From Alphaproteobacteria bacterium (lineage in GTDB: Bacteria; Pseudomonadota; Alphaproteobacteria; SMXS01), in contig JANQQJ010000023.1 in NCBI GenBank assembly GCA_028284945.1, positions 124,001 through 188,000 of the forward strand: a stretch of DNA of 64,000 nt, written 5' to 3'. Position 1 is the stretch's first letter; every line of letters starts with the position of its first letter. The notes beneath the pieces were generated by a model. That model saw only the letters and a list, made by a program, of their open reading frames with translations, was not told the origin of the DNA and searched no databases. This document shows positions 28,038 to 29,744 of the stretch, in pieces. Both the position numbers and the translations under genes were made by a program.

Positions 28038-29017
28038 CAGCGGACCTGCTGGGAGTCTTGGGACCAGGCCGGGTGCTCGGTCCGTATCGCCGCCCGAAGA
28101 CGGGCTGAACGGGACCGGGGGTTTCGGGTGATCTCTGCTTCGGTTGGTTTGACCGCCCGCCTGTTTGGCACACGGAATGAAGGGGGGCGACGGTCTGGCG
28201 CTTGAGGGAGGTGTCGGGAGTGGGTCGGCGCCAAACCGCCGCGCTCACGCAGAAAGTCTTTCACAATGCGGTCTTCGAGGGAGTGGAAAGAGACGACCGC
28301 CAATCGACCTTCAGGTGCGAGCATTCGTTCAGCAGCTTGGAGCCCTTGCTCAAGCTGCCCTAATTCGTCGTTTACATAGATGCGCAGGGCCTGGAATGTG
28401 CGCGTGGCCGGATGGACCTTGCTGGCGCCTTTGCCACCAACGGCCCCGGCGACAATCTGTGCCAGTTGAAGCGTTCGCGTGATCGGCTCTTCGGCACGCG
28501 CCTCGACAATCGCCCGTGCGACCCGCCGCGATTTCCGTTCTTCGCCATAGCGCCAGATGATGTCTGCCAGATGGTTCTGGTCTTCATTGTTCACGATATC
28601 AGCGGCAGACGGCACGGATGAATCGCTTGTCCCGCTCATCCTCATATCGAGGGCGCCGTCATGCATGAATGAAAAGCCGCGCTCACTGTTGTCCAGTTGC
28701 ATCGACGAAACGCCGACGTCGAACGCCATTGCCTGAATAGACGAATGTGTTTTCGCCACCAGTGCCTCGACATCGCCGAACCGGCCTTGCTGGAACGAGA
28801 ATCGATCCGGATAAGCGCGTGCGATCTCTTCGGCACGCGCCTTAACCGTTGGATCACGGTCGATCGCAATCACATGGCAAGGCGCTGCATCAAGAAAAGC
28901 CTCGGTATAGCCGCCGCCGCCGAAGGTCGCGTCAATGACGACGTCACCAGGCTGCGGAGAAATTGCTTTCACCACCTCGTCAAGCATGACCGGCCGATGC
29001 GGATTGATCTCATCCAT
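28037..29017 (-). CDS. rsmH: 16S rRNA m4C1402 methyltransferase RsmH (MraW)
   Basis: A 326-residue SAM-dependent methyltransferase for N4 of C1402 in the ribosomal P site. HRPVMLDEVVKAI, the SAM loop DATFGGGGYTEAFL, DVGVSSMQLDNSERGFSF and the C-terminal FHSLEDRIVKDF are diagnostic. I place the start at the ATG at 29017, after GGGAGGTGCCG. The frame is open further upstream but lies inside mraZ. It overlaps the mraZ end by eight bases. Confidence 0.96.
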   Translation of the reverse strand: MDEINPHRPVMLDEVVKAISPQPGDVVIDATFGGGGYTEAFLDAAPCHVIAIDRDPTVKARAEEIARAYPDRFSFQQGRFGDVEALVAKTHSSIQAMAFDVGVSSMQLDNSERGFSFMHDGALDMRMSGTSDSSVPSAADIVNNEDQNHLADIIWRYGEERKSRRVARAIVEARAEEPITRTLQLAQIVAGAVGGKGASKVHPATRTFQALRIYVNDELGQLEQGLQAAERMLAPEGRLAVVSFHSLEDRIVKDFLRERGGLAPTHSRHLPQAPDRRPPSFRVPNRRAVKPTEAEITRNPRSRSARLRAAIRTEHPAWSQDSQQVR

Positions 29018-29480
29018 CGGCACCTCCCAGCGGGGGTGGCGCGAGGGTGATGCTGTCCGGATTGGCCTGAATGATCGCTTCAGCCTGGTCGGCGAACTCC
29101 GCAAAGCGGCTGGGCTCCCAGATCTGAAAGGTTTGTCCACGGCCGGCAAAGATCGCCTTGGTCTTGATTCCGGCATGTTCCTGGAGCTTGGGCGTCAGCT
29201 TGACCCGGCCTTCCGGATCAAAAGCAAGTTCCTTGCTCTTGGTCATTAATGTACTGTTAGCGGCATATTGCGCAGAAAGCGGCGGCAGGGAATCCATGCC
29301 CGCGGCCAATCGCATCATCCGGGATATGGCCCATCCCTCGATGCACGGAAGTTCGAGATGCGGAAAGCCTACAAAGCCTTTGAATTCGGTTTCTTCGAGT
29401 TGCGTGCGAAAGGCAGCCGGAACCGAGACGCGTCCCGTCTTATCGACCTTGTTCTCATATTCCGACAAAAACAGCAGCAT
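29010..29480 (-). CDS. mraZ: Transcriptional regulator MraZ
   Basis: A 156-residue protein with two SpoVT/AbrB-like domains. The first begins FLSEYENKVDKTGRVSVPAAFR, the second LAFDPEGRVKLTPKLQEHAG, each with the family DxxGR motif (DKTGR, DPEGR). MraZ forms a ring and represses the dcw operon by binding TGG-type direct repeats in its own leader, and such repeats are present upstream here. The ATG at 29480 is preferred to a GTG at 29489. AGGTGGG lies upstream. Confidence 0.93.
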   Translation of the reverse strand: MLLFLSEYENKVDKTGRVSVPAAFRTQLEETEFKGFVGFPHLELPCIEGWAISRMMRLAAGMDSLPPLSAQYAANSTLMTKSKELAFDPEGRVKLTPKLQEHAGIKTKAIFAGRGQTFQIWEPSRFAEFADQAEAIIQANPDSITLAPPPLGGADG

Positions 29481-29567
29481 CGCTGCCACCCACCTAGCCC
29501 TGCACGTTCACTCCCTGTACCGCTCGCAGCGCAGGCTGACGCCTTATGGAGAGGACCCCCGCTGAAT

Positions 29568-29603
29568 TGGTAAATTATGGTTTAACATGGTGAAATATGG
29601 TGG
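29568..29603. promoter_or_regulatory. Array 1 of 10-bp-spaced TGG repeats (candidate MraZ operator)
   Basis: TGGT occurs with its first base at 29568, 29578, 29588 and 29598, exactly 10 bp apart and separated by AT-rich spacers. Ten bases is the period of MraZ boxes described in E. coli. The array lies in the leader, 88-123 bases upstream of the mraZ ATG. The TGG word reads on the plus strand, opposite to mraZ. Confidence 0.6.
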
Positions 29604-29650
29604 TCAATGCCGGGAAAGGGCGTTCAAAGGGGTTCTGCGCCCGAAATCCA

Positions 29651-29673
29651 TGGTGAGCTATGGTTACGCATGG
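29651..29673. promoter_or_regulatory. Array 2 of 10-bp-spaced TGG repeats (candidate MraZ operator)
   Basis: ATGG words place TGG at 29651, 29661 and 29671, again exactly 10 bp apart, 53 bases beyond the last in-phase unit of array 1. It falls just downstream of the candidate mraZ promoter, where bound protein would block RNA polymerase. Confidence 0.55.
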
Positions 29674-29698: not shown

Positions 29699-29726
29699 GC
29701 TATAACCACATGCCGACCGCCCTCAA
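29699..29726 (-). promoter_or_regulatory. Candidate sigma-70 promoter for mraZ and the dcw operon
   Basis: Minus-strand TTGAGG (29726-29721), 16 bases, then TATAGC (29704-29699). Transcription would begin near 29691, giving a leader of about 210 bases that carries both TGG arrays. Confidence 0.45.
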
Positions 29727-29744
29727 TTGATAATTCAATTGAGG
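29721..29744. repeat. Perfect 10-bp inverted repeat between dcw promoter and crotonase gene
   Basis: CCTCAATTGA (29721-29730) and TCAATTGAGG (29735-29744) flank TAAT. It lies 42 bases after the stop of the crotonase gene at 29786 and overlaps the -35 element proposed for mraZ. It may be a terminator stem (no T-run follows) or an operator. Confidence 0.5.

Follow-up and report, generated by a model that had tools for sequence, protein, structure and literature searches.

The window, by which we mean the whole stretch of 64,000 nucleotides that was analysed, carries mraZ on its minus strand. Few bacterial regulators are as conserved as MraZ, which controls the division and wall-synthesis gene cluster (dcw). 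Here mraZ is followed on its 3' side, on the same strand, by rsmH, an ftsL-like ORF, ftsI and murE, which represent the dcw cluster, and is preceded on its 5' side by two enoyl-CoA hydratase genes that also lie on this strand. The mraZ start codon (ATG) is located at 29480 and the nearest box of the repeat arrays described below lies 88 bp upstream. The features of the region are as follows.

29010 to 29480, minus strand: mraZ (Pfam PF02381, E 1.1e-15).
29436 to 29438, minus strand: codon (ACG) of MraZ Thr15 in D-K-T-G-R; nearly all other MraZ proteins examined have Lys here.
29568 to 29600, minus strand: proximal array, putatively bound by MraZ, of four intact CCA units with a 10-bp period (CCATATTTCACCATGTTAAACCATAATTTACCA), read as TGGT on the plus strand; orthologous arrays are found class-wide.
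29579 to 29584, minus strand: predicted -10 element TAAACC, separated from the -35 by N17 and preceded by TGT; this is a prediction, and the class form is TGnTATCCC.
29601 to 29610, minus strand: fifth, degenerate unit GCATTGACCA, the counterpart of CCATTGACnC in the class, with the predicted -35 inside it.
29602 to 29607, minus strand: predicted -35 element TTGACC, based on the phase of TTGA in class arrays.
29648 to 29673, minus strand: distal array of three CCAT units (CCATGCGTAACCATAGCTCACCATGG), 53 bp from the proximal array and apparently private to this genome.

Some further structures were observed around the leader. A terminator scan returned a short hairpin at 29473-29490 (minus strand) that contains the mraZ start codon and could affect translation. 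Just past the enoyl-CoA hydratase stop lies an inverted repeat (CCTCAATTGAATTATCAATTGAGG, 29721-29744) which is unique in the genome, folds into a strong hairpin (z -3.4) without a T run and is perhaps an operator or terminator remnant. A near-palindrome around AATTACTTG, located about 10-50 bp upstream of the -35 and conserved in relatives (L083-L085, L087-L090, L093 and L094), is absent from the corresponding place in the window.

On re-reading the sequence, the seven TGG positions given by the original prediction were all exact. On the plus strand, TGGT starts at 29568, 29578, 29588 and 29598 in the proximal array and TGG starts at 29651, 29661 and 29671 in the distal array, so that both consist of direct repeats of a TGG core with an exact 10-bp period. 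Read on the mraZ strand, the proximal array is GCATTGACCA CCATATTTCA CCATGTTAAA CCATAATTTA CCA, in which a degenerate fifth unit precedes the four perfect ones. The gap between the arrays (29598 to 29651) is 53 bp, which is out of the 10-bp register and close to five turns of 10.5 bp. When both strands of the 64-kb window were searched, these two arrays were the only runs of at least three TGG at 10-bp spacing, and a run of four was obtained in none of 5000 first-order Markov copies of the leader. In the 3.56-Mb genome the pattern ATGGTN5ATGGTN5ATGGT has a single match, the proximal array, and ATGGN6ATGGN6ATGG occurs without mismatch in two places, one per array and both in the mraZ leader. 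TGG triples alone were rejected as evidence (53 genome-wide versus 32 for the reversed control).

Eraso and colleagues are said to have described, in 2014, the E. coli mraZ operator, with TGGGN repeats as the MraZ boxes of Pmra. The E. coli leader, whose sequence was checked in NC_000913, resembles the one described here in having direct repeats with a TGG core and an exact 10-bp period, just upstream of mraZ and at the dcw promoter. It differs in that its three TGGG boxes lie on the coding strand and start right after the -10, whereas here TGG is found on the non-coding strand, with boxes that run across the predicted -35 and -10. In Burkholderia cenocepacia, MraZ shifts a fragment containing 10-bp TGG/GTG boxes; the four GTG-core repeats (7 + 3 nt, giving the 10-bp period) are again located at the dcw promoter but downstream of the -10, over the start site (PMC7761207). 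In the beta and gamma leaders compared, the core lies on the coding strand. The Mollicutes MraZ box, (AAAGTGKN3)3, is bound by an MraZ octamer (PMC5282649) and likewise consists of direct GTG(G) repeats with a 10-bp period at the mraZ promoter, but it is AT-rich, with AAA before GTG and fewer units (PMC5282649, PMC8475190). The TGGG form of the box, which is that of E. coli, varies between lineages and does not define the operator, is not found in the proximal array, where all boxes are TGGT. Class relatives mostly carry TGGG, although this base varies in Mollicutes and several other leaders too. A literature search returned no MraZ binding data for any alphaproteobacterium, and in the open-access literature we found no description of an MraZ operator in Alphaproteobacteria.

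Conservation was analysed in the mraZ leaders of 9 family members (one contig, L086, has no leader and 8 were readable), in class leaders drawn evenly from about 140 families, in 80 Pelagibacteraceae contigs and in 50 genomes from the rest of the phylum, E. coli K-12 among them. The Pelagibacteraceae hits, together with gene content and the MraZ sequences, indicate that the class is Alphaproteobacteria. Runs of at least three CCA units at 10 bp on the coding strand, meaning TGG on the non-coding strand, were present in 134/158 alphaproteobacterial mraZ leaders, and three CCA units were present in all 80 Pelagibacteraceae leaders. At least three TGG on the coding strand were seen in only one of the 158 class leaders, which has at least three CCA too, versus 38 of the 50 leaders from other classes of the phylum (43 when GTG was counted as well). 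Five of these 50 additionally carry at least three CCA further upstream. A Fisher test on array strand gave p 4e-32, a descriptive value given that the rows are related species. Because the strand counts differ in this way between class leaders and the rest of the phylum, the inversion is a property of the class and not an oddity of this genome. The non-alphaproteobacterial habit of a TGG core on the coding strand, itself non-defining, is absent here in keeping with the class-wide inversion. The original prediction was right that the repeats lie opposite to mraZ; this orientation is the rule across Alphaproteobacteria and not special to this locus. It had also named loss of the phase in relatives that keep mraZ as the finding that would speak against it. 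The proximal array is conserved with mraZ in the relatives, and the distal array alone is not. The strand comparison is one within the phylum, as a scan of viral contigs for MraZ from other phyla found none. In genus g187 of another class of the phylum (L277, L278, L283, L284, L286), three further GTGG-like boxes were observed as a second set, on the other strand and 130-270 bp upstream of the usual MraZ array, which would look as though MraZ also targeted a divergent promoter upstream.

The repeats are located in the leader of a gene identified as mraZ by Pfam, and the proximal array overlaps its predicted promoter. The proposed position "between a promoter and mraZ" therefore had to be given up, and the same overlap is seen class-wide. 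In the class consensus CCATTGACnCCCATntnatCCCATGnTATCCCATaanntcCCA, derived from 116 leaders anchored on TTGA, the boxes are interleaved with the -35 and the -10. TTGA stands 17 bp (72 leaders) or 18 bp (44 leaders) before a CCATG unit, spacings that the anchoring itself required, and the independent support comes from a free count of TTGA phase. Of 148 TTGA occurrences between positions -40 and +15 relative to the first perfect CCA, 116 had array phase 2-3. TATCCC, preceded by TGn, then follows the -35 hexamer at a distance of 17 or 18 bp; the -10 of the leader in the window (TAAACC) is unlike this class form. On the coding strand, the element profile exceeded the 99% point of shuffled leaders in 153/156 class leaders, a description of fit and not a blind test since most of the 156 leaders also built the profile.

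Placement of the array relative to the promoter is less uniform than its strand. In two class leaders (L099, L104) the array appears downstream of a TTGAC-type promoter, and given these leaders occlusion of -35 and -10 need not be the sole geometry in the class. Elsewhere in the phylum the array usually starts just past the -10, and in one genus it reaches into it. Because placement varies inside and outside the class, these leaders point to strand as the firm class difference and to position as a tendency. The 5' leader of Rhodobacteraceae is described as long, with its promoter located far upstream. In L210, a candidate long leader, the array is found 263 bp upstream and contains TTGACA-N17-TATCCC, which would fit this arrangement.

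The core pattern CCATGnTATCCCA (genome-wide pattern CCATGNTATCCCA) was searched in 190 class genomes and gave 127 matches versus 7 for the reversed control. Ninety-seven of the 127 lie at most 400 bp upstream of mraZ, every one of them on the mraZ strand. The core was present in 105/159 genomes with a detected mraZ versus 4/31 genomes without (Fisher p 4e-8). Seven matches away from mraZ turned out, on reading, to be isolated two-unit coincidences, mostly inside ORFs. The strict core is missing from the window itself. This near-restriction of the motif to the mraZ leader suggests dcw autoregulation as its main task, and the repeats are very probably an MraZ operator; on this point the original prediction finds strong backing in arrays that are conserved class-wide in mraZ leaders and occur almost nowhere else. 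Another conserved regulator such as NtrX, CtrA, CenR or one not yet recognized might instead occupy the array, with MraZ not binding at all. Published work on Rhodobacter and Sinorhizobium puts NtrX and CtrA upstream of mraZ (PMC7240162, PMC3616915, PMC4414408), and a CenR ChIP signal has been reported at mraZ (PMC9275681). However, the published NtrX (GCAn9TGC) and CtrA (TAA-N7-TTAAC) motifs do not match a 10-bp CCAT array, and these three regulators have many targets, whereas the core is coupled to the presence of mraZ and nearly confined to its leader. As the core box is moreover the reverse complement of known MraZ boxes, we consider a regulator other than MraZ most improbable. In the window's own genome, four TGG at 10-bp spacing were also observed immediately before the likely start of a ribokinase-like gene (L292, about 1027-1059; C35:77626-77658). 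Here TGG is on the coding strand and other support is lacking, and the run is possibly a second MraZ target or a chance occurrence.

The distal array differs from the proximal one in its distribution. It was absent from all 8 readable family leaders and, in this comparison, which included a single genome of its genus, appears private to the genome. It is unlikely to have arisen by chance, because only about 0.4 perfect ATGG triples are expected genome-wide (estimated from 15 one-mismatch matches outside the leader, with a pattern that was chosen after the distal array had been seen). Extra CCAT/CCAA units near the class arrays cluster at upstream distances of 11, 20-21 and 32 bp and at 20-21 bp on the downstream side, which places them on the same helix face, and this phasing stops at about 40 bp (134 leaders). 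General distal arrays in the class were rejected, as secondary CCA runs of at least three (2/134 leaders) do not exceed in frequency the runs formed by other trimers with a similar composition.

These observations bear on what the distal array does. The proximal array alone could be the operator, with the distal repeats a product of chance or decay that has no function. Their absence from the 8 family relatives, the unremarkable frequency of secondary CCA runs (2/134), the lack of phasing beyond about 40 bp and the lack of a -35 in the class register at the distal array would all agree with this. On the other hand, the perfect ATGG triple is found at the two arrays only, against about 0.4 expected genome-wide, the last two distal units resemble the proximal ones beyond CCAT (15/22 bases identical), and two of the three distal boxes share the private TGGT form. 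We regard a functionless distal array as a serious possibility, though not the favoured one. The original prediction had further proposed that the two arrays might allow looping or hold two MraZ rings. That there are two arrays, the distal one unlikely to be due to chance, was borne out, but co-operation between them has no comparative support because the distal array is absent from the 8 relatives and phasing does not extend beyond about 40 bp. The spacing of 53 bp does approximate 5 x 10.5 bp and the extra class CCAT units at 11, 20-21 and 32 bp lie on one face. Nevertheless, given the stiffness of DNA 53 bp is very short for a loop, the 134 leaders display no distal phasing and the two-array layout is not conserved, so that co-operation across the roughly five helical turns seems very unlikely. 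The distal array might, alternatively, serve a second, upstream start, each promoter having its own operator and the distal one lying downstream of its -10 as in E. coli. A candidate promoter exists (TTGAGG at 29726-29721, N16, TATAGC at 29704-29699) which by eye has promoter-like spacing and matches 8/12 consensus positions, and the distal array starts about 25 bp past TATAGC. But 8/12 matches are common by chance, a consensus promoter scan listed no promoter in the region, and the TTGAGG lies inside the inverted repeat at 29721-29744, which leaves a dedicated second promoter unlikely, if a little less so than co-operation between the arrays.

The MraZ protein encoded in the window has a peculiarity of its own. 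In the D-x-K-G-R loop close to the MraZ N-terminus, 202 proteins from the class and the Pelagibacteraceae in which the motif could be read have Lys, and the MraZ of the window has Thr (VDKTGR). Two further rows without Lys are, judged by their context, wrong-frame matches. Among 148 longer loci the window is the only true exception at this Lys, the other exceptions listed being Gly variants or second-domain matches. The solved Mycoplasma MraZ proteins retain this Lys as well, and recent MraZ structures are available in the PDB (9qlr, 9qlg/9r4j, 9sx6/9sz7). The base before CCA is A in 4/4 proximal units (TGGT) versus C in 650/749 units of Lys proteins (TGGG), and four A would arise by chance at the observed frequency with a probability of about 2e-5. 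Family relatives have Lys and mostly TGGG. Because other lineages vary the box base yet keep Lys (e.g. L194, TTTT), the link between Thr and TGGT, seen in one lineage, is offered as a suggestion. A history in which the operator was inverted and fused with the dcw promoter once, early in Alphaproteobacteria, leaving MraZ to face the other way on the promoter than in E. coli, and in which Lys to Thr in the DNA-contact loop, TGGG to TGGT in every proximal box and a second array followed here as a natural change of recognition code is tentative and, on balance, rather doubtful.

The array with its phase and strand, its interleaving with the promoter, its conservation across the class and its coupling to mraZ are observations; from these patterns we infer MraZ binding, repression and a role of the distal array, and we give a probability of roughly 0.85 to the reading that the proximal array is an alphaproteobacterial form of the autoregulatory MraZ operator, lying over the dcw promoter, with the distal array as an auxiliary MraZ site. 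Seen as a whole, the original interpretation is partly supported. The proximal operator (29568-29610) would comprise 4-5 direct CCAT(N6) boxes at 10-bp pitch, which on the other strand read as TGG(G) boxes of the E. coli type. One MraZ oligomer would engage the boxes through consecutive subunits, one box per subunit and along a single face of the DNA; it would extend over the promoter from the -35 to roughly the start site and keep RNA polymerase off. Promoter occlusion is the likely mechanism because the class boxes interleave with the -35 and the -10. In this way a negative feedback loop would arise, in which mraZ and the downstream dcw genes are repressed in proportion to MraZ, and the distal array (29648-29673) would be a lineage-specific auxiliary site that probably raises local occupancy or damps an upstream start. 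In E. coli and Mycoplasma genitalium, MraZ binds DNA and represses dcw (PMC8475190). Repression is not certain here, because MraZ can act as an activator in Neisseria elongata (PMC9395523).

The class-wide consensus, with its fixed strand and phase relative to the -35 and -10, would allow operators and start sites to be predicted throughout a very large class. The inverted strand raises the question whether MraZ acts by pure occlusion, in which case direction would be irrelevant, or through directional contact. The natural pairing of Lys or Thr with TGGG or TGGT could be used to test which base of the box is recognized by which residue.
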